A stretch of DNA of 64,000 bases, from the NCBI RefSeq assembly GCF_027214025.1, contig NZ_JAPWHB010000004.1:310001-374000 (forward strand), written 5' to 3'. Source of the stretch: Parahoeflea alexandrii (lineage in GTDB: Bacteria > Pseudomonadota > Alphaproteobacteria > Rhizobiales > Rhizobiaceae). This document shows positions 10,962-47,051 of this stretch, one piece after another (within the stretch, counting starts at the first letter, position 1; every line of letters begins with the position of its first letter). Both the position numbers and the translations under genes were made by a program. The notes below the pieces were generated by a model. That model made no database searches. It was not told the DNA's origin and saw nothing but the letters and a program-made list of their open reading frames with translations.

Positions 10962-11540
10962 TCAGATTTCGCTCTGATTGGTGATGATCTTGCCCACCAG
11001 GCCGTAGTCCTTGGCCTCTTCGGCCGACAGCCAGTAATCGCGGTCGGTGTCGGCGGCGATCTTCTCGATCTTCTGGCCGGTGGCCTTGGCGAAGATCCTG
11101 TTCAGCCGCTCGTTCATCTTGATGATCTCGCGCGCCTGGATCTCGATGTCGGAGACCATGCCGCGGGTGCCGCCGGACGGTTGATGCAGCAGGAAGCGGG
11201 TGTTGGGCAGGCACAGCCGCTGCTCCTTCGGCACCGAGACATAGATCAGCGCGCCAGCGGAGGCAACCCAGCCGGTGCCGATGATCCAGACCTTGGGCTT
11301 GATGAAGCCGATCATGTCATGGATCGAATCGCCCGATTCGACATGGCCGCCCGGTGAATTGACGAAGATGCGGATGTCGTCGTCGCTGGCCGCGGCAAGG
11401 GCTGCAAGCTGGGCGCAGACCTTGTGCGCCAGTTCCTGGGTGATGCCGCCGTAGATAAAGATCGAGCGCGATTTGAACAGGTTTGCTTCCGCTTCCTTGC
11501 CCAGGGGCAGTTCAGTCGTCTTTTCTTCTTCGTCGCTCAT
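10962..11540 (-). CDS. clpP: ATP-dependent Clp protease proteolytic subunit
   Basis: A 192-residue serine protease of the ClpP family. Catalytic residues are visible: Ser94 in GWVASAGAL, His119 in FLLHQPSGG and Asp168 in DTDRDYW. The INSPGG-type oxyanion segment is [14 protein letters not shown] 11540 (MSDEEEK) is the family-like start; an upstream in-frame start would add eight unlikely residues. The serine motif differs from the classic QAASMGA, so this is probably one of the additional ClpP paralogues of alphaproteobacteria. No clpX or clpA is adjacent. An intrinsic terminator follows. Confidence 0.93.
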
Positions 11541-11630
11541 AAGGCAGTCTCCGTGTGTTTGCATGTCTCGCAGATAGTACGAACCGGCGTGCGAAACAAT
11601 GGCTGTACGGCGAATGGGTTGCCAACATGC

Positions 11631-11661
11631 AAACGGCGCCGCAAAAAATGCAGCGCCGTTT
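11631..11661. repeat. hairpin between clpP and the helicase gene
   Basis: AAACGGCGC and GCGCCGTTT form a perfect 9-bp stem around a 13-base A-rich loop. It could be the terminator of the helicase gene on the minus strand, but no strong T-run follows. Confidence 0.5.
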
Positions 11662-11723
11662 GGCTATCCCTATGCAATTGCCGATCCGGGATCAGCGCTG
11701 TTCAAACCTCAGGCGAACGCCTG

Positions 11724-13175
11724 TCAGCCGCGGGCAACGGCCTTGTCGCCGGCCTGCTCCGGCCGCGGACGGCGGTCGCTGCGGCGGCGGCGCGACTTGG
11801 CTGCCGGCTGGTCGCCATTCTGATTGGCGGCGGCTGCCGGGTGATGCCGGTTTGCGCCGGGCTTGCCGGCCTGCTGGCCATTGGCTGCACGACCCTGGCC
11901 TTGCGGCTTTCCGCCCTGGCCCTGACGCTGGTCAGGCCTGCGGCCCTGGCCCTGCGGCTTGGCGCCTTGCGGGCGCTGACCCTGGCGCGGACGCTGGGTC
12001 TTGTTGAGCGGCGCGAAATCGCCATCCGGATCGGCAAGCGCGTCGACATAGGTGCCTTCCGGCGCCTTTTCGACCGGGATTTCGGTCTTCAGCATCTTTT
12101 CGATATCGCGCAGCAGCGAGCGTTCGTCCGGTGCGCAGAAGGTCACGGCGGTGCCTTCGGCGCCGGCGCGCGCGGTACGGCCGATGCGGTGGACATAGAC
12201 TTCCGGCACGTTCGGCAGTTCGTAATTGACCACGAGCGTCACGCCCGGCACGTCGATGCCGCGGGCGGCGATATCGGTGGCGATCAGCACCGGCACGGTG
12301 CCGGCGCGGAAGCCGGCAAGGGCGCGTTCGCGCTGGCCCTGCGACTTGTTGCCGTGAATGGCGGCGGCGTTGATGCCGTCTGTTTCAAGCCGCTTGACGG
12401 CCTTGTCGGCGCCGCGCTTGGTGCGGGTGAACACGATCACGCGTTCGCCCTTGCGGGCCCGGATAAGGCCGGCCAGCGCGCCCATCTTGGCGGGCGTCTG
12501 CATGTGCATGACCGAATGATCGACGCGGTCGGCGGTCTTCTTGGCCGGAATCACCGAAACTTCCGTCGGATTCTTCAGGTGACGCGAGGAGAGCTCGCGG
12601 ATTTCCTTGGGCATGGTCGCCGAGAACAGCAACGTCTGGCGGTTCTGCGGGGTCATCGCCAGAATGCGCTTGATTGCCGGCATGAAGCCGATGTCGAGCA
12701 TCTGGTCGGCCTCGTCGAGCACGACGACTTCGATCTCGTTCAATGACACGGCGCGCTGCTCGATCAGGTCCATCAGGCGGCCCGGGGTGGCGATCAGGAT
12801 ATCGATCCCGCCGGCCAGGGCCTTGATCTGCGGGCGGATCGACACGCCGCCGACCACCACGGTCGAGGTCAGGTGCAGCTTGCGGCCGTAATCCTTGACG
12901 CTCTTGGCGATCTGGGCGGAGAGTTCGCGGGTTGGCGAAAGGATCAGCGCGCGGACTTTCTTCGGCGCGGCTTTCTTGCCGGGCGCCAGGCGGTGCAGGA
13001 TCGGCAGCGAGAACGCCGCGGTCTTGCCGGTGCCGGTCTGCGCCAGCCCGATGACGTCGCGGCCTTCGAGAACAAGCGGAATCGCCTGAACCTGGATCGG
13101 CGTCGGGGTGGTCAGATGCAGACCGTCAAGCGTGTCGAGAAGGGCCTTGGACAGGCCGAGTTCGGAAAACAACAT
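11724..13175 (-). CDS. DEAD-box ATP-dependent RNA helicase (RhlE-like)
   Basis: A 483-residue RNA helicase. The Q motif (PTPIQ) lies near residues 24-28, Walker A AQTGTGKT at 45-52, then motif II (VLDEADQMLD), motif III (FSATMP), IATDIAARGIDVPGV and the arginine-finger motif HRIGRTARAG. The last ~90 residues are a low-complexity Gln/Gly/Arg/Pro tail rich in QGQ and RRP repeats, typical of RhlE-type helicases that bind RNA through the tail. ATG 13175 (MLFSELGLS) is chosen because the Q-motif region then starts at the family position; the longer open frame is non-homologous. Likely roles are ribosome assembly, RNA turnover or cold response. Confidence 0.93.
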   Translation of the reverse strand: MLFSELGLSKALLDTLDGLHLTTPTPIQVQAIPLVLEGRDVIGLAQTGTGKTAAFSLPILHRLAPGKKAAPKKVRALILSPTRELSAQIAKSVKDYGRKLHLTSTVVVGGVSIRPQIKALAGGIDILIATPGRLMDLIEQRAVSLNEIEVVVLDEADQMLDIGFMPAIKRILAMTPQNRQTLLFSATMPKEIRELSSRHLKNPTEVSVIPAKKTADRVDHSVMHMQTPAKMGALAGLIRARKGERVIVFTRTKRGADKAVKRLETDGINAAAIHGNKSQGQRERALAGFRAGTVPVLIATDIAARGIDVPGVTLVVNYELPNVPEVYVHRIGRTARAGAEGTAVTFCAPDERSLLRDIEKMLKTEIPVEKAPEGTYVDALADPDGDFAPLNKTQRPRQGQRPQGAKPQGQGRRPDQRQGQGGKPQGQGRAANGQQAGKPGANRHHPAAAANQNGDQPAAKSRRRRSDRRPRPEQAGDKAVARG

Positions 13176-31323: not shown

Positions 31324-34300
31324 CTATCCGTCCCCCATGGCGATCAGCCCGGCATTGCCGCCGGCAGCCGCGGTGTTGACCGAGACCGCCTGCTCGACGG
31401 CGAACCGCATCAGGTAGTGTGGGCCGCCGGCCTTGAAGCCGGTGCCCGACAGGCCGGACCCGCCGAATGGCTGGGTGCCGACCACCGCGCCGATCATGTT
31501 GCGGTTGATGTAGACATTGCCGGTGTCGAGCCGGTCGATCACCTTGCGCACGGTGGCCTCGATGCGCGAATGCACACCGAGCGTCAGGCCAAAGCCGGTG
31601 GCGTCGATCGCGTCAAGCACCGTGTCGAGCTTCTTGGCCTTGAAGCGCACCACGTGCAGCACCGGTCCGAAGATCTCGCGATCAAGTGCTGCCGCATCCT
31701 TGAGTTCGACAATGTGCGGGGCGAAGAACAGCCCCTCGTTCGGCGCGTCGCCCGCATAAACCAGCTTCTGGGTTTTCGAGATCGTCGCGATATGGTCCGC
31801 CAGCATCTCGCGCTGCGCTTCGTCGATCACCGGGCCGACATCGGTCGACGGCTTCGACGGATCGCCGAGCTTGAGTTCGCGCGCAGCCCCCTCGATCATC
31901 TCGAGCATGGCGTCTGCGACATCCTCCTGCACGAACAGCAGCCTCAGCGCCGAACAGCGCTGGCCGGCGGAGCGGAACGCCGACATCACCACGTCGTCGG
32001 CCACCTGTTCGGCCAGCGCTGTCGCGTCGACGATCATCGCGTTGAGGCCGCCGGTCTCGGCGATGAACGGCACGATCGGCCCGTCCTTGGCGGCAAGCGT
32101 CCGGTTGATGGCGCGCGCGGTCTCGGTCGAACCGGTAAAGGCCACGCCGCCGATCTTCGGATGCGAGGTCAGCGCGGCACCGACGTCGCCCGCACCGGGA
32201 AGGCATAGCAGCACGTCCTTCGGCACGCCCGCCTCATGCATCAGGCAAATCGCTTCATGGGCGATCAGCGGCGTCTGCTCGGCCGGCTTGGCAATCACCG
32301 CATTGCCGGCGGCAAGCCCTGCCGAGACTTGGCCGAGAAAGATCGCCAGCGGAAAGTTCCACGGCGAGATGCAGACGAACACGCCACGGCCGCGCCAGCC
32401 AAGCCGGTTGTCCTCCCCGGTTGGCCCCGGCATCGGCAGCATCTTCGTAAACATGTCGCGCGAGCGGGCGGCGTAATAGCGCAGGAAGTCGACGGCCTCG
32501 CGGATTTCAGCGATGCCGTCATCGAGCGTCTTGCCCGCTTCAATCGACAAAAGCGCCATGAACCTGTCGCGCCGGTCTTCGAGCAGGTCGGCGGCCCGGT
32601 CGAGCGCCGCCGCGCGTTCGCCCGGATCGGTCCGCGACCAGCTCTTGAAGCCCTTGAGCGCCGTGGTCACGGCCGTGTCGACATCCTTTGGATCGGTGAA
32701 CCGCACCGTGCCTGCAACTCGCGACGGATCGGACGGCGAACGAACCTGCTGCGCCGCACCGCCCTTCAGCCCCGGCGCCAGCGGCCCGGCCTCGACCGCA
32801 GCCGAGGAGCGCCCCATGCCTTCGATGAGCGAGGCCAGCTGGAAGCGGTCGCCGAACTCGACGCCGCGCGAATTCGGCCGGTCGGGATAGATCGCCTCGG
32901 GGAGCGGGATCTGGCTGTTGCGGGCCGATTGCCCCCGGGCCAGCCCGAGCTTTGCGTCCGGACGCTCCAGCAGAGATTCAACGGGAATGTTCTTGTCGCC
33001 GGCCACCGCCACGAAGGACGAGTTGGCGCCGTTCTCGAGAAGCCGGCGCACCAGGTAGGCCAGCAGGTCGCGGTAGCCGCCGACCGGCGCATAGATCCGG
33101 CACGGCACCCGGTCATTGCTCTTGCTCAGGCTGTCATAGACCACCTCGCCCATACCGTGCAGGCGCTGGAACTCGAAGCCGCTGCGATCCTCCGCCATCT
33201 CCACGATGGTGGCGACAGTGAGCGCATTGTGAGTGGCGAATTGCGGATAGATCACGTCGCGCAGGTCAAGCAGCTGCCGCGAACAGGCGAGGTAGGACAA
33301 ATCGGTCGCCGCCTTGCGGGTATAGACCGCGTAGCCTTCGAGCCCGCGCTCCTGCGCCCGCTTGATCTCGGTGTCCCAATAGGCTCCCTTGACCAGCCGC
33401 ACCATCATCCGACGGCCGTGCTTGCGGCAAAGACCTGCGATATGGTCGATCACCTGCGGCGCGCGTTTCTGATAGGCCTGGATGGCGAGACCGAACCCGT
33501 CCCAGCCGGCCAGCGACGGATCGGCGAACGCCCGGTCGATCACATCGAGCGACAGTTCCAGCCGGTCGACCTCTTCCGCGTCGACGGTGAAGTTGAGGTC
33601 ATGCGCCTTGGCCATCTGCGCCAGCTTGACCAGATCCGGCACCAGTTCCGCAAGCACCTGCTCGCGATGGGTGGCGAGATAGCGCGGGTGCAGCGCCGAC
33701 AGCTTGACCGAGATGCCCGGACGGTCCGGCAGCTTGCGCCCGGCCGACACCTTGTCGGCGGATTTCCCGATCGCCGCGATGGCATCGGCATAGGACTTGA
33801 AATAGCGTTTGGCGTCGGCGCGGGTCCGCGCCCCTTCGCCGAGCATGTCGTAGGAATGGCGGAAGCCGCGGGTCTCGTTCTTGGCAGCGCGGTTGAGCGC
33901 CTCGCCGATGGTTTCGCCGAGCACGAAATGGTGCCCAAGGAAGCGCATTGCCTGCCGCGTCGCCGTCCGCACCGTCGGCATGCCCATCCGCTTGACCAGC
34001 CCGCGCATCACCCCTTCCGGCGTCTCGCCCGGCTTGATCACCCGCGCCGACATGCCGAGCGCCCAGGCGGAGGCGGAGACAAACCAGGTGTCGCCATGCG
34101 TCTCGTGATCGCTCCAGCCGCCTTCCTTCAGCTTGTCTTCGATCAGCCGGTCCTGGGTCAGCGCATCAGGCACCCTGAGCAGCGCCTCGGCCAGCACCAT
34201 CAGCGCAAGACCCTCCCGTGTCGACAGCCCGTATTCGCGCAGGAAGTCCTCGACCCCGCCCATCTGGCCGGAATCGGTGCGGATCGCCTGGATCAGCTTC

Positions 34301-34437
34301 GTGGCGCGCGCATCGATCGCCCGCTCCTGGGCGCTGGTGAAATTCAGCCGTTCGCTGAAACCCCGGATCAGGCGGTCGTCATCCGGTGCATGTGAGGCAT
34401 GAAAGGCGGTCAGAACTGGCGCGGCTGTAGCGGTCAT
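31324..34437 (-). CDS. putA: bifunctional proline dehydrogenase / glutamate-semialdehyde dehydrogenase
   Basis: A 1037-residue enzyme that oxidises proline to glutamate at the membrane. The FAD proline dehydrogenase barrel occupies about residues 80-470 (for example RRMMVRLVKGAYWDTEIK). The aldehyde dehydrogenase occupies about 540-1030, with ISPWNFPLAIFLGQ and catalytic Cys in SAGQRCSALRLL. There is no N-terminal ribbon-helix-helix domain and no long C-terminal extension, so it is the short non-DNA-binding type. ATG 34437 fits the family start. It is divergent from an Lrp-type regulator that probably replaces the missing autoregulatory domain. Confidence 0.97.
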   Translation of the reverse strand: MTATAAPVLTAFHASHAPDDDRLIRGFSERLNFTSAQERAIDARATKLIQAIRTDSGQMGGVEDFLREYGLSTREGLALMVLAEALLRVPDALTQDRLIEDKLKEGGWSDHETHGDTWFVSASAWALGMSARVIKPGETPEGVMRGLVKRMGMPTVRTATRQAMRFLGHHFVLGETIGEALNRAAKNETRGFRHSYDMLGEGARTRADAKRYFKSYADAIAAIGKSADKVSAGRKLPDRPGISVKLSALHPRYLATHREQVLAELVPDLVKLAQMAKAHDLNFTVDAEEVDRLELSLDVIDRAFADPSLAGWDGFGLAIQAYQKRAPQVIDHIAGLCRKHGRRMMVRLVKGAYWDTEIKRAQERGLEGYAVYTRKAATDLSYLACSRQLLDLRDVIYPQFATHNALTVATIVEMAEDRSGFEFQRLHGMGEVVYDSLSKSNDRVPCRIYAPVGGYRDLLAYLVRRLLENGANSSFVAVAGDKNIPVESLLERPDAKLGLARGQSARNSQIPLPEAIYPDRPNSRGVEFGDRFQLASLIEGMGRSSAAVEAGPLAPGLKGGAAQQVRSPSDPSRVAGTVRFTDPKDVDTAVTTALKGFKSWSRTDPGERAAALDRAADLLEDRRDRFMALLSIEAGKTLDDGIAEIREAVDFLRYYAARSRDMFTKMLPMPGPTGEDNRLGWRGRGVFVCISPWNFPLAIFLGQVSAGLAAGNAVIAKPAEQTPLIAHEAICLMHEAGVPKDVLLCLPGAGDVGAALTSHPKIGGVAFTGSTETARAINRTLAAKDGPIVPFIAETGGLNAMIVDATALAEQVADDVVMSAFRSAGQRCSALRLLFVQEDVADAMLEMIEGAARELKLGDPSKPSTDVGPVIDEAQREMLADHIATISKTQKLVYAGDAPNEGLFFAPHIVELKDAAALDREIFGPVLHVVRFKAKKLDTVLDAIDATGFGLTLGVHSRIEATVRKVIDRLDTGNVYINRNMIGAVVGTQPFGGSGLSGTGFKAGGPHYLMRFAVEQAVSVNTAAAGGNAGLIAMGDG

Positions 34438-34516
34438 GGCAATTTCCCCGTGGATGCCGCAGCATAACCCTTGATGAGTAGCGTTTCTCACTGTATTTGG
34501 GTCAGGAGATTGAATC

Positions 34517-34537
34517 ATTCTCTACAAATTCGAGAAT
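34517..34537. promoter_or_regulatory. putative PutR operator
   Basis: Inverted repeat ATTCTC, nine bases, GAGAAT in the putA/regulator gap, 14 nt before the regulator ATG. The spacing suits a dimer of an Lrp-type protein. Seen by eye only. Confidence 0.45.
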
Positions 34538-34550
34538 TCAGGGGGATTTG

Positions 34551-35012
34551 ATGAGGGAAATAGACCGGATTGATCGGAAGATCCTTCGCGCCATACAGGA
34601 CAATGGGCGGCTGACCAATCTCGAACTGGCGGACACGATCAGCCTTTCCCCCACCGCAACGGCCGAACGCCTCAAACGCCTCAACCGCGACGGCTACATT
34701 CAGGGCTACACCGCCAAGCTCTCCCCCGAGAAACTCAACCGCGGGATGCTTGTCTTCGTCGAGGTTAAGCTCGACCGGACCACTCCAGATGTATTTGACG
34801 CATTTTCCGAGGCCGTTCGCAAGTCCGACGATGTGATGGAATGCCACATGGTCGCCGGCGGCTTCGACTATCTCGTCAAGGCCCGCGTCAAAGGCATGGA
34901 AGCATACCGCAGCTTTCTTTCCGATATCATTCTGTCCTTGCCCGGCGTTCGTGAAACACACACATACCCGGTCATGGAAGAAGTAAAAAACACCGGAAAA
35001 CTTCCGGTTTGA
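34551..35012 (+). CDS. putR: Lrp/AsnC family regulator of proline use
   Basis: A 153-residue regulator. The N-terminal winged HTH (RIDRKILRAIQDNGRLTNLELA, then SLSPTATAERLKRL) is followed by the RAM/AsnC ligand domain (MVAGGFDYLVKARVK, SDIILSLPGVRETHTYPVMEEVK). ATG 34551 has AGGGGGAT upstream. It is divergent from putA, as PutR is in Agrobacterium and other rhizobia, where it activates putA in response to proline (family knowledge). An inverted repeat in the gap could be its site. Confidence 0.93.
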   Translation: MREIDRIDRKILRAIQDNGRLTNLELADTISLSPTATAERLKRLNRDGYIQGYTAKLSPEKLNRGMLVFVEVKLDRTTPDVFDAFSEAVRKSDDVMECHMVAGGFDYLVKARVKGMEAYRSFLSDIILSLPGVRETHTYPVMEEVKNTGKLPV

Positions 35013-35996: not shown

Positions 35997-37094
35997 TCAG
36001 CGATCCAGAATTGCGCGCATCTCGACCAGGTTCGAGCGGAATCTCAGCACATAAAACCCCATGGTCGCCAGATGCGTCGGCATGATCCATCCGCTTTCAT
36101 TGCCATTCGAGATGATGAAAGGCTGGATCTTCAGCGCCGAGGACAATTGCACGTCCATATCGTCCCACAATTGACCGAGATTGCGTTGCGCCACCACATC
36201 GCGGAAGTCCTCGCGGGTTGCCTTCAGGATCCCGTAATAGCCGTAGAGCTGGCCATAGGAAAACCAGAACCGGTCGTCAGCGCGTGTATCGAACCAGCCG
36301 GAATTGAAGTTCTCCGACCGGTCACGCAGGATCGCCGAGGTCGACCCGACGTCTGATGCAATCCTGTCAAGGAACTGAACCAGGTTGTCGGTGCGGGCAT
36401 CGTAGGTTGCCTCGCACTTGCTCAGGCGGGTGTTGAATGCCTCAAGGTTCTGGATCGCCGAACGGTAGAAAGACGGCGTCGGTGTCTTTGGTCCAAACGG
36501 GCTGATGCCGAAATACCAGGTGTATTCGTCAAACTGCATGGCGCCGCGCGCATCCTGCAGGTCGCCGTCGACCTGGCTGGTGCCGCGCACGCGCCCCAGC
36601 GTGTCGACAAACTCGACCGTGGTCCGGCGGATCGCCTGGTTTACGCCGCGCTGAAACGCCGCCTTGTTGTCGAAGAAAGGCGTGTGATCCCACTCCACAC
36701 CGAACAGGCCTGCCTTGTAGAGGATCATCGACGAAATCCAGGCATTCTGATTGACGTTGAAGTCGATCAGGTCAGATGTCATCGATACCATTGCCGAAGG
36801 CGCGCAAGTGCCATCGGCCTGCTTGGTTCCAGGCGTCGTTGCCATGGCTTCGCGCTTTGCCGGATAGTCAGGATCGAACCCGCTCCAGACCTGGGTCTGC
36901 CAGAAGAAGTAGCCGTAAAGCCCGACAAAGACGACGATGATGCCGCCGACGATGGCCTTGAGAAGGAAGCCACGCCGCCGGTACCAGCCCGCCATCGTGA
37001 CGAAGGGCCACAGAAGAAGCGAAATCAGCATGCCGATACCGCGGCCGATGGCGTGGAAGATCCGCTCAAAAAACTCAATCACCGGGTCAAGCAT
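35997..37094 (-). CDS. DUF2333-like membrane-anchored protein (gene 5 of AAA operon)
   Basis: A 365-residue protein. One or two hydrophobic segments near residues 15-35 (GIGMLISLLLWPFVTMAGW) and 45-65 (AIVGGIIVVFVGLYGYFFW) anchor it; the rest is a soluble, probably periplasmic domain rich in aromatic residues (WYFGISPFG, FWFSYGQLYGYYG). Resembles DUF2333 family proteins, whose function is unknown. Its ATG overlaps the preceding gene's stop by eight bases. Last gene of the five-gene operon. Confidence 0.8.
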   Translation of the reverse strand: MLDPVIEFFERIFHAIGRGIGMLISLLLWPFVTMAGWYRRRGFLLKAIVGGIIVVFVGLYGYFFWQTQVWSGFDPDYPAKREAMATTPGTKQADGTCAPSAMVSMTSDLIDFNVNQNAWISSMILYKAGLFGVEWDHTPFFDNKAAFQRGVNQAIRRTTVEFVDTLGRVRGTSQVDGDLQDARGAMQFDEYTWYFGISPFGPKTPTPSFYRSAIQNLEAFNTRLSKCEATYDARTDNLVQFLDRIASDVGSTSAILRDRSENFNSGWFDTRADDRFWFSYGQLYGYYGILKATREDFRDVVAQRNLGQLWDDMDVQLSSALKIQPFIISNGNESGWIMPTHLATMGFYVLRFRSNLVEMRAILDR

Positions 37095-38388
37095 CGTCTT
37101 GGTATCCTTCCAGTCCGTAAAGCCGCGCCCTCAGCGCTGCCTTGTTGTTCAGATAGGTGGCCGCGAGCACATCCACAACATGAGCGCGGTAGCTCTCGGA
37201 ATAGCCGTCATAAGCCGTGTAAAAACCCTGCTTGTCAAAGACGAAGCGGCTGACGAAGTCAAACGGCGCCAATCCCGCAAGCAGCCGGTTGACGAGCCAC
37301 TGGTCCGGATGCGCGGGGACCGCTCGGCACAGCATAAGCCGCCGGTCGGCCCGAACTTCACGCATCTTCACCTGTCCGGTCGATGCAACCTCGCGCATCG
37401 CCTCCTGCAGGAACGGATAGATCCCCTCCTCGGCAATCAGCGCGGAATTCCGGTGCATCCATGTCTGCATCCAGATCCGGTCGGTTCCCGCGAGATCGAC
37501 CGACGGATCGGCCCTGCGGATAAGATCGTACACCGCCATCTCGGCCCGGTGGGCGAAGAATCCCGACGGCTCGACCCAGGAAGCCCGTGGCAATTGCAGC
37601 CGCTCCGATTTCGACAGGTACTCGAAGATCCGCGCATGGTCGCGAATGTCGATATAGCTCACTTCCCACGGGCGGGACCGCCGGAACCCCGGCGCGTGAC
37701 TGTCGCAGATCACGGTGGTGGTCCGGTCATCGCGGAAGATGAATACGCCGCCGAAATGGTTGGCCCAGTAGGAATTGTGCGGGAACACCAGCTTGTCGGG
37801 CACCAGCGCGTTCTGGCGAATGTCACCGGTTTCCTTCGCAAGCTCGACCATCCTGTTGAGCATGGCGTCATCCCGCCAGCCGTCCTTCGAGGACTTCAGC
37901 CGGTCGACCAGCGCGCGCAATTCCGTCGCCTTGCCCAGCATGTTCTCGGCCGACATCACCCGGAAACGGACCTCGTTGATCGACAGCAGATCCTCGACCC
38001 CGGTCACCACATCGACCGGCTCCTCGATCTCGCCAAACAGCGCATCCTTGATCGTCACCGCGTGCACGGCGCGGCGATTGCCGTCGAAGAACTCGTGCAT
38101 CAACCCGGCGGTGTTGGAGAAATGGGTGTGGACCACCGGCAGGTTCTCCTGCTCCGGGGTCAGCACGATGAACCGGCGGTTGACGCCGTTGGGGTCGAGA
38201 TACTGCACGTCGCCGAGTTCCTCGGCGATTTCCGGCGAGAAGCCGGTCATGTCGATGCGGAACTCCTCGAGCTTTGTTTCGGGCAGTCCGAAAGCCCGCA
38301 GCGCCTTGTTGTAGCGCGCCACGAGATGCGGCTCGGCGACAGGAAGCAACCGCCCGTAGATCAGTTCGTTTTCGACGAGCCGGTTCAT
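37087..38388 (-). CDS. uncharacterised protein, perhaps DUF6638 (gene 4 of AAA operon)
   Basis: A 433-residue soluble protein with no signal peptide or membrane segment. I think it corresponds to DUF6638, but this rests on memory of neighbouring annotations. Notable segments are VVHTHFSNTAGLMHEFFDGNRR (several His), ALFGEIEEPVDVVTGVEDLL and a C-terminal region of charged helices. Its ATG overlaps the AAA ATPase stop by four bases (ATGA), so the two proteins are made in coupled fashion and probably work together. Confidence 0.8.
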   Translation of the reverse strand: MNRLVENELIYGRLLPVAEPHLVARYNKALRAFGLPETKLEEFRIDMTGFSPEIAEELGDVQYLDPNGVNRRFIVLTPEQENLPVVHTHFSNTAGLMHEFFDGNRRAVHAVTIKDALFGEIEEPVDVVTGVEDLLSINEVRFRVMSAENMLGKATELRALVDRLKSSKDGWRDDAMLNRMVELAKETGDIRQNALVPDKLVFPHNSYWANHFGGVFIFRDDRTTTVICDSHAPGFRRSRPWEVSYIDIRDHARIFEYLSKSERLQLPRASWVEPSGFFAHRAEMAVYDLIRRADPSVDLAGTDRIWMQTWMHRNSALIAEEGIYPFLQEAMREVASTGQVKMREVRADRRLMLCRAVPAHPDQWLVNRLLAGLAPFDFVSRFVFDKQGFYTAYDGYSESYRAHVVDVLAATYLNNKAALRARLYGLEGYQDDA

Positions 38389-40301
38389 TGCTGCCAGCGC
38401 CCGTCCCGTTTCATGGATTCGATCTCGCGGATCGCCCGTTCGCGCTGCCGCTCGCGGCGGATGATGTCGTCGACGGCCGTGGCATCCGAGCGGTCGGTGT
38501 AGCGGAATTCGGAGTCGGCGTAGCGATTGATCTCCTGCAGCACCATCTCGATGGTGAACGGCTTGCGCAATTCGGAGATCATCGCGATCTTGTCGTCATA
38601 GGATTTGTGCATGAAGGCTTCAGGCGTTTCGAACCACTCGTCCGGCAGGTCGATGTCCATCGCCCGCATCTTGATCGCGTCGCTGATGTTCTTGATCGCC
38701 CGGCCGGTAAAGCGCGGTTCGGCAAGCTTGATGCGGTGCAGATAGGCGCCGATATCGGCAATGGTCGTCACCTTGCCGTGCTCGCTTTCGAACCGTTCCC
38801 AGACTGAAAGCAGCCCCTCCTCCTGCGGCCGGTCATGGCCGTCATAGGAGCGTTCAACCGCCTTTTTGATTTCCTGGCTGGCAAACAGATCGTGCGCCCC
38901 GAGCGGGATCGAGTGGTTCTTGCCGGCCAGCAGCGCGAAGATGTCGATGTAGTCGTCAAGCGATTGCGGCCCGTCGACCAGCCAGCGGGCGCCGGCGCGT
39001 TGCCTGAGCGCATCGTCGACATTTTCCGGATAGTTCGAGAACATGCCGAAGCTGCAATTGCCGCGCACCACGGTGGAGGCGCCGGCGAAACTTTCCATCA
39101 GCACGGCGGTGACTTCCTGCTGGCCCGCCGACGCCCGGTCGTCGGAGCGCTTGGCCGCGACCTGATCGATGTCGTCGATGGTGCCGAAACCGATGGCGCG
39201 CGGATTGAGCACGTTGTCGACGAAGGCCTTGCAGTTCTGGCCCGACTTGCCCTGGTAGGACGAGATCTGGTCGACGCCGAAATTCTCGTAGTGAAACGGA
39301 TAGCCCGCGACCTCGCAGTAATCGTTGATCATGCCGGCCAGCATCTGGATCAGGATGGTCTTGCCGGTGCCCGGCGCCCCGTCGCCCATGAAGGTGAACA
39401 GGAAGCCGCCGAGTTCGACGAACGGATTGAGCTGCCGGTCGAAATCATAGGCCATGACCATCCGCGCCAGCCGCATCGCCTGATGCTTGGCAAGATGGTT
39501 GCCGATGATCTCGCCCGGCTTCTTGAAGCTCATCACCAGCGGCTTGCGGCGCTGCCCCGGCGCCACGTCGAAGCCGTCTAAGGTGAAATTGTCGCTTTCG
39601 AGCCTGAGATGCGATTGCGCGAAAGCGCTCAGCGCGTCGAACCGGGCGCGCCGGCTGATCAGCCCCTCGATCGCAACCCGCGCCAGCGCACGGGCGCGCG
39701 AAGTCATCGCGGTCTCGTCCGGCGCGCCGGAAATCGCCTCGTCAAGCGCAGCAACGATTGATTTCAGCGCATCCTGCGGCGTGTCGAACTGGAAATCCGG
39801 CTCCTCGGTGTCGTTCGCCGGTTCGCTTTCGCCGTCGACGGTCTGCAGGATGTAGGCGGCAAGCGTGAACGCCGCCACATAGGCCGAGGCCGAGAGCAGC
39901 CGCTTGAAACGCTCCGCCTCCTCGCCCTGCAGCGGCGCACCGGCATTGCGCGATTGCAGACTTTCAAGATCGGTCTGCTCGGCAAACATTTCCGCCACCG
40001 CCAGCGCCACCGCAATCCCGCGCCGGGTGCGATAGAGAAGAGCGTGCTGCGGGATCGACAACATCTGGTCATTGGCCCGGACCGACTGGATGGTCTTTGC
40101 AAACTCGATTTCGCGGGTGCGGCGCATGCCTCCGGTCGAGACCGTCGAGACGAACCGCCTCTGGGTTCCCGCAAGCGGCGTCGAGGATGTGCCGTCCTCT
40201 TTGGTCAGCACCACGACGCGGGTTACCATCGACTGCGCCACCGTCTGGTGCCGGGCGATGTCTTCCTCGGAAATCGTTGTCAGCCCTGTTGTCTGGCTCA
40301 T
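38385..40301 (-). CDS. AAA family ATPase (gene 3 of AAA operon)
   Basis: A 638-residue protein. Walker A GAPGTGKT lies at residues 308-315 and Walker B-like GFGTIDDIDQ at 371-380, with arginine-finger candidates in LRQRAGARW about 85 residues later. The first ~300 residues are a helical domain of unknown type; the last ~180 carry a helical lid and a basic tail (RQRERAIREIE). It is a cytoplasmic mechano-ATPase or chaperone-like motor. Substrates are unknown. Encoded in a five-gene operon with two membrane- or coil-rich partners. Confidence 0.88.
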   Translation of the reverse strand: MSQTTGLTTISEEDIARHQTVAQSMVTRVVVLTKEDGTSSTPLAGTQRRFVSTVSTGGMRRTREIEFAKTIQSVRANDQMLSIPQHALLYRTRRGIAVALAVAEMFAEQTDLESLQSRNAGAPLQGEEAERFKRLLSASAYVAAFTLAAYILQTVDGESEPANDTEEPDFQFDTPQDALKSIVAALDEAISGAPDETAMTSRARALARVAIEGLISRRARFDALSAFAQSHLRLESDNFTLDGFDVAPGQRRKPLVMSFKKPGEIIGNHLAKHQAMRLARMVMAYDFDRQLNPFVELGGFLFTFMGDGAPGTGKTILIQMLAGMINDYCEVAGYPFHYENFGVDQISSYQGKSGQNCKAFVDNVLNPRAIGFGTIDDIDQVAAKRSDDRASAGQQEVTAVLMESFAGASTVVRGNCSFGMFSNYPENVDDALRQRAGARWLVDGPQSLDDYIDIFALLAGKNHSIPLGAHDLFASQEIKKAVERSYDGHDRPQEEGLLSVWERFESEHGKVTTIADIGAYLHRIKLAEPRFTGRAIKNISDAIKMRAMDIDLPDEWFETPEAFMHKSYDDKIAMISELRKPFTIEMVLQEINRYADSEFRYTDRSDATAVDDIIRRERQRERAIREIESMKRDGRWQQ

Positions 40302-40305
40302 GATC

Positions 40306-41451
40306 TCATACCTCGCTTATGACCTGGTTGCCCGACACCACATGCACGGTAAAGCCCGAGAAAATGCTCTCGGCCTCGCCCGAGGCATAAAGCGCCTGGT
40401 AGGCGTCGTGCGGCACAAGCGCATGTTTCTGGTAGGCGCTTACACCCTGCCGCGTCGCTTCCAGGTCATCGGTTTCGATATGGTATTCGTCCCGCGCCGG
40501 CTCCGAGCTCCACAGCCCCCGCCTGGCCGGACGTTCGGCCTTGGAAAACACCTCCTGCATGGTCCAGGTCAGAAGCCAGGCGTTTTCGTCCTTGCGCACC
40601 TTCGACAGGATCGTCGAGATCCGGTCGCTGTTCTCCGTCACGCCGGCCGAATAGAATGGCCCGAGCACGAAGCGGCGCAACTGCTTGGGGTGCAGGTGCT
40701 CGAAATCGGCGTCGAGGTTCTGCGCGATCGTCACCGGCGACAGCGAATAGGCGCCGTTCTTTTCGGCCGAGGCATCGAAGGCGCGGGCGAATTCCGGATT
40801 GAGCAGCCCGCCGACAGGCAGCGGGATATCGACTTCCGGATTAAGTTTGCCGTCCTTGGTCACCAGCATCTTGGCGATGGATTCGCTCGAATCCTCGATC
40901 GTCGCCATGTAGACCATCGGCAGCGTCTGGCTGCCGTCGAAAACGCCCCAGTGCACTACGTAAAAGGGGCGCCCGTTTCTCGGATTGACCGAAACCCGTA
41001 TCGTTTCGGGCAGGATGAACGGCGCGAACACCGCATCCTTGCCGATCTCCTCGAGATACAGCCGCTCGGCGATCTGTTCCTGCAGGGCCGCGGGAAATTC
41101 CTTGTGGCGCAGGATGAAGTCGGCCATTTCCGCCTTCAGCGTCTCGACATCGGGGATCGACGCCAGCCTTTCCGTGGCCGTTGCGCGGTCGTTTTCCAGC
41201 GTCAGCACGTTCTGGAACATCGGAAAGCCGCTCTCCGCGCGGCTGATGCGGAAGCGCTCGATGAAGCCCACCCGGTTTTCCCAGGCCGAAAACGTCGCCT
41301 CCAGCCGGTCGACATAGGGAATGATCACCTGGCCGACCAACCCGTGCGCGTAAAGCGGCGAATTGTCGTCGGCAAGATAGACCCGCAAGCCCTGCAAGGC
41401 GGCGTGCATCGACCTGAAATAAGCTCCGGCAGCGCCGGTGTCAGCACGCAT
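40306..41451 (-). CDS. uncharacterised protein (gene 2 of AAA operon)
   Basis: A 381-residue soluble protein of unknown family. The N-terminus is helical (YFRSMHAALQGLRVYLADDN), then come regions with mixed beta content (FYVVHWGVFDGSQTLPMVYM) and a helical C-terminus (YQALYASGEAESIFSGF). No catalytic motif, signal peptide or membrane segment seen. Its stop lies four nt before the AAA ATPase start, so the two are almost certainly co-translated. Confidence 0.8.
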   Translation of the reverse strand: MRADTGAAGAYFRSMHAALQGLRVYLADDNSPLYAHGLVGQVIIPYVDRLEATFSAWENRVGFIERFRISRAESGFPMFQNVLTLENDRATATERLASIPDVETLKAEMADFILRHKEFPAALQEQIAERLYLEEIGKDAVFAPFILPETIRVSVNPRNGRPFYVVHWGVFDGSQTLPMVYMATIEDSSESIAKMLVTKDGKLNPEVDIPLPVGGLLNPEFARAFDASAEKNGAYSLSPVTIAQNLDADFEHLHPKQLRRFVLGPFYSAGVTENSDRISTILSKVRKDENAWLLTWTMQEVFSKAERPARRGLWSSEPARDEYHIETDDLEATRQGVSAYQKHALVPHDAYQALYASGEAESIFSGFTVHVVSGNQVISEV

Positions 41452-41480
41452 GGCCGGCCTCCGGTTTCATCACGGCGCGC

Positions 41481-42569
41481 TTAGGATTTCACGTAGTTGG
41501 CTGAATTGTGCTTTTCCAGAACCTCTGAAAAACGCCGGGCGAACGCGTCGTCGGCAAGCTTCTTGCGGCGCTGGATGTCCTGCGTCGACAGCATGTTCTT
41601 CTCATGCATCTCCAGAAGGTCGCCAATGTGCTTCTGCGCGGCGGCGCCGATTCCGGCCATGGTTTCTTCCGCGGCGGTGTCGACCCGGCTCCCGAGCGTG
41701 TTGATCTTGTGGGCCACGTCCTGCTGCGCCGCGGTCTTCAACGAATCCTCGAGCGCCTTGTAGAGCACGATGCGCTGTTCGGTATCGATGGTCAGCTTGT
41801 TGATCAGCGTGTTCTGCGCGGCGATCTGGTTGTTGAGCGAATCCACGAAGGTCTGGAACATCGAGGTGTAGCGCTCCAGCGTCTGGCTTTCCGCCAGCAG
41901 TTCCTGCTCCTTGGCCTGCCGCTCATTGTACTCGGTGGCGAGCTTCGAGCGATCACTTTCAAGCTCGGTGCGGGTCTTCTGATCGGTCGAAGCGGCAATC
42001 TTGTTTTCGATGTCCATCAGCAGCGGATTGAGTTCCTCGATCCGCTGCTGCGTGGTTTCGAGATTGGCCATGGTCACCTTGCGCCGCTCGATCACCTTGA
42101 TCAGGCTCGCCTCCGAGGTCTTGTAGCGGCTGTCGAGGATATCCTTCTGGTCCTTCAGGATGCCGGTGATGGTGTCGGACTTCTTCAGAAGCTCCTGCAG
42201 GTTGCCCGACAGCGACATGTTCCTGACCCGGTCCGAGCGCATCCGTTGCGCGCGCGCCTTGGAGAAGATCGCCACAAAGCTCTCCATTCCGGAAAAGCCC
42301 TTCATGCTTTCGAATTCGGAACCGAACACGTTGGTGGCGTCCTCGAGCCCGATAATCAGGTCGGCGATGTTGGTTTCCATCATCCGCTGCTGGCGCAGGA
42401 CGTCCTGAATACGGGCATTTTCGATATCGAACTGCGGATCGCCAAGCTCTGCATCGGCCTCCGACAGCTTTTCGAGCACCACGCCCGACGCCTCGATCTT
42501 CGAGCGCATGTCATTGACCACCGAGCGTGTCTTTTCGATTTCCGCATCGAGCGCCTTGATATCGGCCAT
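41481..42569 (-). CDS. coiled-coil protein (gene 1 of AAA operon)
   Basis: A 362-residue, almost entirely alpha-helical protein with long heptad-rich stretches (for example residues ~150-245 with LETTQQRIEELNPLLMDIE and SKLATEYNERQAKEQELLAE). No membrane segment or signal peptide. Its general layout, with a KLTIDTEQRIVLYKALEDSL segment, recalls toxic-anion-resistance (TelA-like) proteins, but I cannot establish homology. ATG 42569 has AGGGG eight nt upstream; a TTG at 42575 is in frame. First gene of the operon. Confidence 0.8.
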   Translation of the reverse strand: MADIKALDAEIEKTRSVVNDMRSKIEASGVVLEKLSEADAELGDPQFDIENARIQDVLRQQRMMETNIADLIIGLEDATNVFGSEFESMKGFSGMESFVAIFSKARAQRMRSDRVRNMSLSGNLQELLKKSDTITGILKDQKDILDSRYKTSEASLIKVIERRKVTMANLETTQQRIEELNPLLMDIENKIAASTDQKTRTELESDRSKLATEYNERQAKEQELLAESQTLERYTSMFQTFVDSLNNQIAAQNTLINKLTIDTEQRIVLYKALEDSLKTAAQQDVAHKINTLGSRVDTAAEETMAGIGAAAQKHIGDLLEMHEKNMLSTQDIQRRKKLADDAFARRFSEVLEKHNSANYVKS

Positions 42570-43301: not shown

Positions 43302-43919
43302 CTACTCTTGAGCGTCAGGATTCATCACATCGTCCCAGTGACGGCGACAATAAGACACATATTTCTCGTTGCCGCCGACCTCGATCTGGGCGCCCTCGCG
43401 GATCACCCTGCCCTGCTCGTCCATGCGGACGACCATCGTCGCCTTGCGCCCGCAATGACAAATCGTGCGCACCTCGCGCAACTCGTCGGCAAGCGCAAGC
43501 AAGGCCTGCGACCCTGGAAACAGCTGCCCGCGGAAATCAGTCCGTAGGCCATAGGTCATCACCGGGATCTTCAAACGATCCGCCACGCGCGCCAGTTGCC
43601 ACACCTGCGCTTCGGTCAGGAACTGCGCCTCGTCAACGAAGGCGCAGGCGATGTCGCCGCCCGCCTGCAGGCTCTTCAGTGTTTCGTAGAGATCGTCTTC
43701 CGGACGGAACGCGTGCGCCTCGCTGTCGAGCCCGATGCGCGAGGCAATGCGTCCGACGCCGGCACGGTCATCGAAGGCCGCGATGAACAGCACCGTCCGC
43801 ATGCCGCGTTCCCGGTAGTTGTAGGAGGCCTGCAGCAGAAGCGTCGACTTGCCGGCATTCATGGTGGAATAGCTGAAATAAAGCTTGGCCAAGACCGGCT
43901 CCCGATTATCTCCCGGCAT
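43302..43919 (-). CDS. tdk: thymidine kinase (class II)
   Basis: A 205-residue salvage enzyme phosphorylating thymidine. Walker A STMNAGKST lies at residues 18-26, Walker B FVDEAQFL follows, and the zinc finger (HCGRKA and YCRRHW) closes the protein. The lasso-loop segment is present as YGLRTDFRGQLFPGS. ATG 43919 is used; the open frame extends upstream without homology. Divergent from the choline transporter. Confidence 0.94.
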   Translation of the reverse strand: MPGDNREPVLAKLYFSYSTMNAGKSTLLLQASYNYRERGMRTVLFIAAFDDRAGVGRIASRIGLDSEAHAFRPEDDLYETLKSLQAGGDIACAFVDEAQFLTEAQVWQLARVADRLKIPVMTYGLRTDFRGQLFPGSQALLALADELREVRTICHCGRKATMVVRMDEQGRVIREGAQIEVGGNEKYVSYCRRHWDDVMNPDAQE

Positions 43920-44136
43920 CCGCGTCTCGCCGACGCGTCCCGCAGGAGTCAAGACCCGGCGAAACCATGAACACCGGTTACGCCTCTCTTGCCGGTCAGC
44001 GCGGTCAAATTCCAGCCCCGTCATGCCGCTTTCAACAGCCGTTTTCGATCCCAGCACAAAAATTGACGGCATTGCGGCTTGAGTTCACCGCCCATAGGTG
44101 GTTGTTTCTGCAATCGGAACACGGGAGAGACCGACC

Positions 44137-45066
44137 ATGACAAGAAAAATGACCCTTACTTTCGCTGCAATCCTGCTCGCCGGAACCGCATCCGTTCAGG
44201 CGGCCGATGCCGAATCCTGCAAGAATGTCCGCTTTGCCGATGTCGGCTGGACCGACATCCAGGCCACCACGGCCGTCGCCGGCGTCGTGCTTGACGCACT
44301 CGGCTATTCCCAGGAAGTCCAGGTGCTCAGCGTGCCTGTGACCTACCAGTCGCTGAAGAACGAGGACATGGATGTTTTCCTTGGCAACTGGATGCCCTCG
44401 ATGGCCGCCGACGTGCAGCCCTTCCTCGACGATGGTTCGGTTGAAACCGTCGCCCAGAACCTTGACGGCGCAGGCTATGGCCTGGTTGTCCCGACCTATG
44501 CCGCCGAAGCCGGCGTCAAGAGCCTGAGCGACATCGGCAAGTTCAAGGACAAGTTCGACGGCAAGATCTACGGCATCGAACCGGGCAATGACGGCAACCG
44601 CATCGTGCTCGAGATGATCGCCGATCCGGCCAATGGCCTCGATGGTTTCGAACTGGTCGAAAGCTCCGAAGCCGGCATGCTGTCGCAGGCCGAAAAGGCG
44701 CTCAAGAACGAGGAGTGGATCGCATTCCTCGGCTGGACCCCGCACCCGGTGATGGGCGAGATGTCGATCGCCTATCTCGATGGCATGGGCGACAGCGGCT
44801 TCGGCGCCGCCACCGTGCACACCAATGTGCGCGCCGGCTACACCACCGAGTGCCCGAACGTCGGAACCCTGATCAAGAACCTGTCGTTCTCGCTGTCGAT
44901 GGAAAACCAGATCATGGACGCGATCCTCAAGGGCGAAGACGCGAATGCCGCAGGCCTTGCCTGGCTGAAGGCCAACCCGGATGCGGTCAAGCCCTGGCTT
45001 GAAGGCGTCACCACCTTCGACGGCGGCGACGCTGCCGCAGCCGTTACAGCCAAGCTCGGCATGTAA
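44137..45066 (+). CDS. choX: choline ABC transporter substrate-binding protein
   Basis: A 309-residue periplasmic protein with a signal peptide (LTFAAILLAGTASVQA). Aromatic residues that form the choline cage are present in DVGWTDIQATT, FLGNWMPSM and LGWTPHPVM. The domain order matches ProX/ChoX type II binding proteins. It begins the choXWV operon; choW follows after 66 nt. AGAGA precedes the ATG. In rhizobia choX is choline-inducible (family knowledge). Confidence 0.95.
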   Translation: MTRKMTLTFAAILLAGTASVQAADAESCKNVRFADVGWTDIQATTAVAGVVLDALGYSQEVQVLSVPVTYQSLKNEDMDVFLGNWMPSMAADVQPFLDDGSVETVAQNLDGAGYGLVVPTYAAEAGVKSLSDIGKFKDKFDGKIYGIEPGNDGNRIVLEMIADPANGLDGFELVESSEAGMLSQAEKALKNEEWIAFLGWTPHPVMGEMSIAYLDGMGDSGFGAATVHTNVRAGYTTECPNVGTLIKNLSFSLSMENQIMDAILKGEDANAAGLAWLKANPDAVKPWLEGVTTFDGGDAAAAVTAKLGM

Positions 45067-45132
45067 GACTTGCAATGACGGTCCGGGGCTGCTTGCCGGT
45101 TCCGGACCGTTTTGGGTGTCGGGGGACATGAC

Positions 45133-45987
45133 ATGGATGGACTGGCAGATTTCATAACGGCCTGGAAAATCCCGGTCGGGCAATGGGGAAAGAGCTTCTT
45201 CAATTTCCTCACCGACAATTTCGAGTTCGCCTTCGACGCCATCGCCGACAGCCTCAAGTTCCTCCTCGATTCAATGATTGACGGTCTCTTGTGGCTGCCC
45301 CCGCTCGTCCTCGTCGCGGTGATCGCGGCTATAGGCTGGCGCATCCAGAAATCCTGGAAACTGGCGCTCGGGATCGTTCTCGGGCTGACCTTTATCATCA
45401 ATCAGGGCCTGTGGAAGGAAACCGTCGAAACCCTTGTCCTGGTCATATCCGCCGCCTTCATGTCGATGCTCATCGGCGTTCCGATCGGTATCTGGCTGGC
45501 GCACCGGCAGCGGCTCTACACCTATGTTCAGCCGGTCCTCGATCTGATGCAGACGATGCCGACCTTCGTCTACCTGATCCCGGTGCTCATCCTCTTCGGC
45601 CTCGGCCTCGCCCCGGGCCTGCTTGTCACCATCATCTTCGCCGCACCGGCGCCGATCCGGCTCACCTATCTGGGCATCACCTCGGTCCCCAGGCCTATGG
45701 TTGAAGCCGGACAAGCCTTTGGCGCCTCGCCCCAGCAGCTGCTCCGCAAGGTCGAACTGCCCGCCGCCCTGCCGACCATCATGGCAGGCCTCACCCAGTG
45801 CATCATGCTGTCGCTGTCGATGGTCGTGATCGCCGCGCTGATCGGCGCCAACGGGCTCGGCAAGCCGGTGGTGCGGGCGCTCAACACGGTCAACATTCCG
45901 CTCGGGCTTGAAGCCGGCATCGCCATCGTCATTCTCGCCATCATCCTCGACCGCATCTGCCGGGTCCGGATCGGAGCCACGTCATGA
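45133..45987 (+). CDS. choW: choline ABC transporter permease
   Basis: A 284-residue inner-membrane permease with about six to seven hydrophobic helices and the cytoplasmic coupling motif EAGQAFGASPQQLLRKVELPAAL. The family signature VLDLMQTMPTFVYLIPVLILFG is present. Its stop overlaps the ATG of choV (ATGA). Works with ChoX and ChoV to import choline for osmoprotection or membrane lipid synthesis. Confidence 0.95.
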   Translation: MDGLADFITAWKIPVGQWGKSFFNFLTDNFEFAFDAIADSLKFLLDSMIDGLLWLPPLVLVAVIAAIGWRIQKSWKLALGIVLGLTFIINQGLWKETVETLVLVISAAFMSMLIGVPIGIWLAHRQRLYTYVQPVLDLMQTMPTFVYLIPVLILFGLGLAPGLLVTIIFAAPAPIRLTYLGITSVPRPMVEAGQAFGASPQQLLRKVELPAALPTIMAGLTQCIMLSLSMVVIAALIGANGLGKPVVRALNTVNIPLGLEAGIAIVILAIILDRICRVRIGATS

Positions 45988-47051
45988 GCCCTGATGCTGC
46001 GCGCGGCTCGGTCCGCATCGACAATGTCTCCATCATCTTCGGCGACAGTTCAGCCGAGAGCCTGGCACTCGCCGACGCCGGCAAATCCCGCACCGAGATC
46101 CAGGAAGCCACCGGCGACGTGCTCGGTGTGCACAATTGCACCGTCGATATCAACGAGGGAGAGATCCTGGTCCTGATGGGCCTGTCCGGCTCGGGAAAAT
46201 CCACCCTTTTGCGTGCCGTCAACCGGCTCAACCCGATCAGCCGCGGCAAGCTCATCGTCCATTGCGGCGACGAGACTTTCGATGTCGGGGCCTGTGACGA
46301 CAGGCAGCTCAAGCAGCTGCGCATGGACACGGTCTCGATGGTGTTCCAGCAATTCGGCCTGCTGCCATGGCGCACGGTGGCCGACAATGTCGGCTTCGGC
46401 CTTGAAATCGCCGGTGTCCCCAAGTCCGAACGTGACAGGCGGGTTGCCGAACAGCTCGCGCTCGTCGGCCTCTCCGACTGGTCCGAGCGCATGGTGGCCG
46501 AACTTTCGGGCGGCATGCAGCAGCGCGTCGGCCTGGCCCGCGCCTTTGCCACCGGCGCACCGATCCTGTTGATGGACGAGCCGTTCTCGGCGCTTGATCC
46601 GCTGATCCGCACCCGGCTGCAGGACGAGTTGCTCGAACTGCAATCCCGGCTCGGCAAGACCATCATCTTCGTCAGCCACGACCTCGACGAGGCCATGAAA
46701 CTGGGCAACCGCATCGCCATCATGGAAGGCGGCCGCATCATCCAATGCGGCACGCCGCGCGACATCGTCAATTCGCCCGTCAACAAGTATGTCGCCGATT
46801 TCGTCGCCAACATGAACCCGATCGCCATGCTCACCGCGCGCGATGTCATGGAGCCTGGAAAGCCCGACATCTCGCGCGGCCAATCGCCGCTGTCGGCGTC
46901 CGTAACCCCCGATACGCCGCTTTCCGACGTGATGGACGCACTGGCGAGGCGAGAAGGGACCGTTGGCGTGATTGACAAGGGCGTCGTCACAGGCTCCATC
47001 ACAGCCGACGATATTGTTCGCGGCCTGACGCGGCACCGCCGCTCAGATTGA
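45984..47051 (+). CDS. choV: choline ABC transporter ATP-binding protein
   Basis: A 355-residue ABC ATPase. Walker A GLSGSGKST, the Q-loop VFQQFGLLPWRT, signature LSGGMQQRVGLARA, Walker B ILLMDEPFSALD and switch His in IFVSHDLDEA are all present. A C-terminal CBS-like regulatory part (SVTPDTPLSDVMDALARREGT) is typical of the ProV/OpuA group and may sense ionic strength. It starts at an ATGA overlap with choW. The betaine-synthesis genes often linked to choXWV are not in this window. Confidence 0.95.
   Translation: MSPDAARGSVRIDNVSIIFGDSSAESLALADAGKSRTEIQEATGDVLGVHNCTVDINEGEILVLMGLSGSGKSTLLRAVNRLNPISRGKLIVHCGDETFDVGACDDRQLKQLRMDTVSMVFQQFGLLPWRTVADNVGFGLEIAGVPKSERDRRVAEQLALVGLSDWSERMVAELSGGMQQRVGLARAFATGAPILLMDEPFSALDPLIRTRLQDELLELQSRLGKTIIFVSHDLDEAMKLGNRIAIMEGGRIIQCGTPRDIVNSPVNKYVADFVANMNPIAMLTARDVMEPGKPDISRGQSPLSASVTPDTPLSDVMDALARREGTVGVIDKGVVTGSITADDIVRGLTRHRRSD

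Follow-up and report, generated by a model that had tools for sequence, protein, structure and literature searches.

Background

What brings five genes, most of them for uncharacterised proteins, into one tightly packed row around an ATPase of the AAA type? The question is raised by a stretch of 64,000 nucleotides (nt) from Parahoeflea alexandrii (NCBI RefSeq assembly GCF_027214025.1, contig NZ_JAPWHB010000004.1, positions 310,001 to 374,000; hereafter the window). Its minus strand carries, in order, genes for a coiled-coil protein (the coil), a soluble protein of 381 residues (p381), the AAA ATPase, a DUF6638 protein and a DUF2333 protein, spaced along the operon by +29, +4, -4 and -8 nt according to the coordinates of the open reading frames (ORFs). 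These values match exactly the gaps of 29 and 4 nt and the overlaps of 4 and 8 nt reported in a first-pass annotation, which a model had made from the sequence alone.

The comparison with related genomes showed that the coil, p381, the AAA protein and DUF6638 form a conserved four-gene soluble core that goes together. On the evidence of the sequences, there is in our judgement an even chance that the product of the operon is a remodelling machine of the AAA+ type, docked on the inner membrane. Searches of the literature by family names, by Sinorhizobium meliloti locus tags and by toxin-antitoxin (TA) hotspots found no description of such a machine.

Conservation of the operon as one unit

The loci used for the comparison were the best 80 of 513 with relatives, a set that leans towards near relatives and whose members are not independent of one another. 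The order coil, p381, AAA, DUF6638, DUF2333 was found in 77 of the 80, the remaining three being cut by contig ends, and the first four genes follow one another in all 20 loci of a further sample, which overlaps the first by at least one genome (Hoeflea olei, L066 and L101). Because related genomes conserve all five as proteins and keep their order, they are not chance ORFs.

The joint occurrence of the genes points the same way. When 240 genomes were sampled evenly across the class, the coil and the AAA protein were present in the same four. Within the family, which includes the root-nodule symbiont S. meliloti, 199 genomes were sampled: AAA was recorded in 116, DUF2333 in 156 and the full-length coil in 117, a coil count that omits eight of 125 matches, either reduced (G043, G107, G253, G265, G684) or near the threshold (G567, G665, G685). 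Every one of the 116 AAA-bearing genomes also holds the full-length coil and DUF2333, and the one family genome with a full coil and no AAA is a 68%-complete draft. The proposal that the five genes make one functional unit is thus supported by order and co-occurrence alike. The first-pass annotation had held that genes dispersed in relatives would refute such a unit; dispersal was seen in part only, two loci (L214, L215) carrying the operon in two blocks.

The AAA ATPase

By its Pfam score the AAA protein is a member of PF00004 (45.7 bits against a gathering score of 21.2, E 1.2e-11), and its best matches are CDC48, the proteasome-activating nucleotidase (PAN) and the i-AAA (FtsH-type) protease, although matches to known AAA proteins span only residues ~286-478 of 638. 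An alignment of 18 sequences (A3) revealed an invariant GDGxPGTGKT motif, which we take to be Walker A, an invariant pore-loop-like Y349-Q-G motif, and the invariant residues N423 and R433/R435/R439, presumably the sensor-1 asparagine and the arginine fingers. The protein shares with the Cdc48, PAN and FtsH type the PF00004 domain, Walker A, an aromatic-x-Gly pore-loop-like motif and arginine fingers. It differs from that type in an N-terminal region of ~280 residues belonging to no family, in its orphan partners and in the lack of any visible protease domain. It differs, too, in the pair assigned to Walker B, which is Asp-Asp (D376 D377) and not Asp-Glu in 18 of 18 sequences. Despite the Pfam match, the standard glutamate-based catalysis cannot be assumed, and the motifs would fit substrate threading with altered ATP turnover and, equally, a slow switch. 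In one genome of the same genus (G309; L043, L046) residues 1-248 and 248-636 of the AAA protein are encoded in different reading frames, the gene being apparently broken or the sequence in error.

Partner proteins and their models

The coil belongs to no Pfam family and gave only scattered weak matches of the coiled-coil type in Pfam, PADLOC and NCBIfam; at about residues 285-312 it contains a conserved segment (QQDVAHxINxxG...MAGIGA). For p381 no Pfam family was found either, with two matches only (E 0.07-0.17) among 19 members. The last two proteins of the operon are members of the families DUF6638 (PF20343, 265.9 bits against a cut-off of 27) and DUF2333 (PF10095, 69.9 bits against a cut-off of 22), both uncharacterised: DUF6638 is named in no paper found by literature search, and DUF2333 is named, and called uncharacterised, in PMC5256989.

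Sequence search yielded no convincing relative of solved structure for the coil, p381, DUF6638 or DUF2333, such relatives being confined to the AAA module. AlphaFold2 models reached a pLDDT of 90.1 for DUF6638 and 87.7 for p381. The DUF6638 model had no match in the PDB at E <= 0.001 with Foldseek, and with VIA its Z did not exceed 4.6 (41 residues), which does not show that the fold is new. The p381 model, helical at its N-terminus and rich in beta structure in its C-terminal domain, gave no PDB match at E <= 0.001; the lowest Foldseek E was 0.13, for an unrelated design. The C-terminal domain of p381 (~156-343) gave a best VIA match at Z 5.6, below a Z of 8 (125 aligned, rmsd 3.9); the best rows were urate oxidases, followed by other proteins of what we take to be the T-fold. 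This weak structural likeness to T-fold proteins (urate oxidase, GTP cyclohydrolase I, DHNA) is a hint only, and could reflect no more than a common arrangement.

Two further candidates were set aside. Matches of the p381 fold in a viral library, with TM-scores of at most 0.20 among the matches listed, were disregarded, and a homology among p381, DUF6638 and DUF2333, suspected from a common SP motif, was rejected with hhalign probabilities below 1%.

An exchangeable membrane partner

A hydropathy scan placed membrane segments in the DUF2333 protein alone of the five (residues 19-37 and 40-66). A layout from cytoplasm to inner membrane, of the cytoplasm-to-envelope kind suggested in the first-pass annotation, is supported by this and also by a second set of loci (L047-L057) in which another membrane protein takes the last place. 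Nine of these eleven loci belong to family code f16 (presumably Rhodobacteraceae), one to another family of the window's own order and one to another class. DUF2333 is missing from all eleven, and DUF6638 is followed instead by a protein of 215-266 amino acids (aa) that is similar across the whole set. In most of the loci a protein of ~90 aa stands between the two, with two hydrophobic segments in both of those examined. One of the eleven terminal proteins is a DUF1523 protein (E 1.6e-65), similar to three others that were checked and to that of L216, from a further family code; the papers found in a search on DUF1523 treat other topics. In gene content and order, the core is coupled in this family to the membrane protein DUF2333 and in the second set to a DUF1523-like membrane protein, mostly with a small protein of two transmembrane (TM) segments.

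The four-gene core is also present on megaplasmids of Vibrio vulnificus and V. parahaemolyticus, before a copy of mfd, its homology being confirmed with the V. vulnificus proteins. The different terminal proteins and the Vibrio core together indicate a core of four soluble proteins with an interchangeable membrane partner. On these megaplasmids of ~0.9 Mb (L217, L220) the two core blocks are laid out alike, accompanied by SIMPL-domain, DUF3592 and hypothetical genes, the plasmid mfd and an A24 peptidase gene.

Exchange of the partner is suggested within the genus Hoeflea as well. The DUF2333 protein of Hoeflea olei is 60% identical to that of the window, against 87-89% in other Hoeflea, and clusters with those of L104 and Pseudohoeflea (L107); the remaining four proteins encoded there share 85-93% identity with their counterparts in the window. 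Judging from these identities, the membrane partner has apparently been replaced.

An insertion slot at the AAA/DUF6638 junction

The operon is interrupted mainly at one place, which was not among the points of the first-pass annotation. Inserts of at least 300 nt were observed at the AAA/DUF6638 junction in 52 of 95 measurable loci (L047-L146), compared with 5/96, 6/96 and 0/84 at the other three junctions (11/276 together; Fisher p 2e-26 with relatedness ignored). The gap between DUF6638 and DUF2333 is below 60 nt in 66 of 84 loci. An AAA row is available for 98 of the 100 loci L047-L146, and proteins with masked letters were dropped from the counts that needed them. The inserts gave 103 co-directional ORFs of at least 72 aa, 89 of which were scanned for families, the other 14 being alternative ORFs of the same inserts. 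Opposite-strand ORFs were compared with the class seeds only and not with Pfam, which leaves an unrelated antisense insert possible. Classes were assigned by similarity to seeds, most of them Pfam-named, the Fic seed being a guess.

The 52 inserts comprise a ParE-type toxin with a helix-turn-helix (HTH) antitoxin (10), a RelE/ParE toxin with a ribbon-helix-helix antitoxin (7), a Phd antitoxin with a PIN toxin (7), Phd alone (1) and a DUF559 endonuclease (18). The f16 loci contribute AbiJ_NTD4, DUF3825 and a sub-threshold HEPN-like gene, one each, and one TM protein common to two loci; four inserts fall in no class. In all, 24 of the 52 are complete type II TA pairs of three kinds, all co-directional with the operon. 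Their last gene ends at a distance of between -17 and 59 nt from DUF6638, with a median of 16, and their first gene lies a median of 56 nt after AAA. These TA systems are inserts in relatives, passengers or effectors, and no part of the core. The slot is empty in 36 of 89 classified loci, and its content changes at least 30 times on the AAA tree (98 rows, 89 labelled), a rough figure taken from a quick tree with long branches, on which L104 (antitoxin only) is labelled as Phd-PIN and L117 (gap of 232 nt) as DUF559. Close relatives can differ in their TA pair (L075/L078, L088/L077). In S. meliloti Ak57 (L218) the slot, at 11106-12851, holds an ISRm16 transposase in inverted orientation together with a gene whose annotation is that of a protein with an endonuclease domain.

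At the other junctions, inserts of at least 300 nt yielded 27 ORFs of at least 72 aa; among the 26 scanned, three match Fic and one Band_7/SPFH. By size, the Band_7 match is suspected to be the 313-aa ORF of L111 (7642-8583), and the Fic matches three of the 259-265-aa ORFs between p381 and AAA in L117, L139, L140 and L144.

It is probable, by a modest lead over its opposite, that cassettes find a passive safe harbour in the slot, a module boundary where they land without doing harm and have no relation to the function of the operon; this explanation is limited to the slot and leaves room for a remodelling machine. It is favoured by the rapid swapping among close relatives, the presence of DUF559 and of an insertion sequence (IS) element beside the TA genes, the frequency of empty slots, and the break of both split operons examined at the same boundary. 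The scarcity of inserts elsewhere in the operon complicates it, as the tolerance must then be specific to one junction, and so does the filling of the slot, by different genes, in both Rhizobiaceae and f16 loci. A tolerated module boundary is nonetheless more likely than a wired effector position. It is proposed that TA and nuclease cassettes come to rest at this boundary since, when inserted in the direction of the operon, they keep both of its halves expressed and are themselves protected by the conserved operon. No paper on a TA insertion hotspot in rhizobia was found by literature search. The slot offers a natural case in which to ask why TA genes choose their places and whether hosts exploit the TA genes found there.

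How the operon comes apart

Related genomes provide natural dissections of the operon, in the form of reduced coils, DUF2333 alone, split operons and exchanged membrane partners. DUF2333 occurs without AAA in 40 of the 199 family genomes; 19 of these 40 loci were examined, and the neighbours were checked in 17. In 16 of the 17 (all but L200) DUF2333 adjoins the same conserved transporter-like genes, which we take, by position and size, for the choline transporter annotated by the S. meliloti operon. A reduced coil stands before DUF2333 in five of the 19 (L177, L178, L201, L212, L213; three genus codes). The conserved segment ~285-312 is deleted in four of these coils and degenerate in that of L201, and the coils of L212 and L213 lack another stretch too. 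The loss of this segment where AAA is missing suggests that the segment may bind AAA.

Full and not-full states of the operon switch at least 11 times on a quick DUF2333 tree, where gain and loss are not distinguishable; the coil remnants favour loss. Both split operons break between AAA and DUF6638, and DUF6638 and DUF2333 stay together, apart from the rest. The AAA/DUF6638 boundary is a breaking point of the operon, and DUF2333 can stand alone.

That DUF2333 works by itself, the four-gene AAA core being a separate system that simply lies upstream, is rather unlikely. The absence of AAA from 40 of the 156 DUF2333-bearing family genomes would agree with it, as would the other proteins that follow the core in f16 and Vibrio genomes and the occurrence of DUF2333 outside the family, where nine neighbours (in seven of 20 loci) show no common theme and include LysR, a tRNA synthetase, a Mur ligase and a kinase, among others. 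Against such independence stand the 116 AAA-bearing family genomes, none of which lacks DUF2333, the overlap or near contact of DUF6638 and DUF2333, and the persistence of this pair in both split operons examined.

Proposed function and alternatives

In the proposed remodelling machine, the AAA ring would thread or pull its substrate through the Tyr-Gln-Gly pore loop, in the manner of classical AAA proteins of the Cdc48/FtsH type. The coil would dock on AAA through its C-terminal segment ~285-312 and link it to the membrane partner, with p381 and DUF6638 as dedicated adaptors or regulators. The machine's task would likely be the quality control or remodelling of proteins or membrane complexes at the cytoplasmic face, and the AAA/DUF6638 boundary would divide it into two modules, one of coil, p381 and AAA and the other of DUF6638 and DUF2333.

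Several observations weigh against this proposal. No recognisable coil is present in 14 of the 19 AAA-less loci examined, which implies a role of DUF2333 without AAA and, possibly, only a loose link between them. The coil deletion covers three genus codes only and may be part of a general decay, since further parts are gone in L212 and L213. The DUF2333 of Hoeflea olei is of another clade, so the pairing tolerates exchange; owing to such exchange, the 11 switches are a rough figure that may overcount gains and losses of the core. The aspartate that replaces the Walker B glutamate may point to slow turnover of ATP, or to a protein that works as a switch and not as a motor. Finally, no obvious membrane partner was seen among the scanned neighbours of the Vibrio core loci.

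Alternatively, the operon could be a chassis for defence or abortive infection, in which the core senses phage or stress and controls exchangeable effectors in the slot (RelE/ParE, PIN, AbiJ-type, HEPN-like). The slot contents, mostly TA or nuclease genes, are what recommends this idea, together with the close co-directional fit of the 24 TA pairs, the three f16 slots with AbiJ_NTD4, DUF3825 and the HEPN-like gene, the Fic domains at other junctions, and some slot proteins that match PADLOC models, mostly generic HTH or control proteins. It is unlikely in view of the many empty slots, of antitoxins that come with the TA pairs and need no outside control, and of a core found in 116 of the 199 genomes of the family, where its genes mostly form one block and are not scattered. 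The core proteins themselves have no convincing match in PADLOC-DB 2023, where the core gave generic AAA matches only (TRIP13 E 2e-4, IetA 0.014-0.019) and the coil weak ones (JetC1 0.039, LmuB 0.47), and no match to the AAA protein was found at E <= 1e-10 in 50,697 phage records. A wider form of the idea, by which the core would act as a modular defence and stress chassis of alphaproteobacteria and some vibrios, sensing stress from phage or on the envelope and controlling the toxin or nuclease in its slot, is distinctly improbable; literature searches on combined terms and TA hotspots found no description of a modular chassis with an exchangeable effector slot.

TelA proteins are mostly helical or coiled coil, and this layout, shared with the coil, had led the first-pass annotation to liken the coil to TelA-type tellurite resistance proteins. 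That the operon confers resistance to tellurite or toxic anions in the manner of TelA is highly improbable, and homology of the coil to TelA was rejected, as no PF05816 match was found at E <= 0.1 in 18 coil proteins, the hhalign profile-profile alignment covered 16 columns with a probability of 1.2%, no TelA gene was found in the window's genome, and several relatives (G051, G055, G067, G083, G099, G115) have a TelA match elsewhere in the genome, besides the operon.

Operon layout and surroundings

The coordinates of the five genes and of the associated features are collected in Table 1.

Table 1. Features of the operon and its upstream border, in positions of the window
Feature	Position	Strand	Description
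Coil	41481..42569	-	362 aa from ATG at 42569; ORF 42575-41481 opens with TTG
p381	40306..41451	-	381 aa, soluble; ORF 41451-40306
AAA	38385..40301	-	638 aa; PF00004 at residues 308-438
DUF6638 protein	37087..38388	-	433 aa; PF20343, E 8.7e-79
DUF2333 protein	35997..37094	-	365 aa; PF10095, E 2.3e-19
AAA/DUF6638 junction	38385..38388	-	4-nt overlap; insertion slot of relatives, empty in the window
Terminator-like hairpin	42741-42716	-	11 pairs, 8 G-C, then T-run

The hairpin lies between the operon and a cytochrome-c-like gene upstream and may separate the two; a single site is modest evidence, the scan having returned 15 sites against 7.1 in shuffled sequences. A scan for sigma-70 promoters was uninformative, with only two matches, both on the plus strand, where 1.7 were expected.

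The operon is adjoined by a thymidine-kinase-like gene (43302-44072, minus strand) and ABC transporter genes (44098-47051, plus strand), which, identified by position and reading, occupy the places of the thymidine kinase and choline transporter annotated in S. meliloti. Nearby lie a gene for what we take, from reading the sequence, to be a PutA-like proline dehydrogenase/aldehyde dehydrogenase (31324-34518, minus strand) and a divergent gene for a presumably Lrp-like regulator (34497-35012, plus strand).

Judging by gene numbering, SMc02733 is presumably one of the operon's genes in Sinorhizobium, a link not used here as evidence. A DNA-binding screen (PMC3687685) found that ChvI binds a Sinorhizobium fragment inside SMc02733 (F9).

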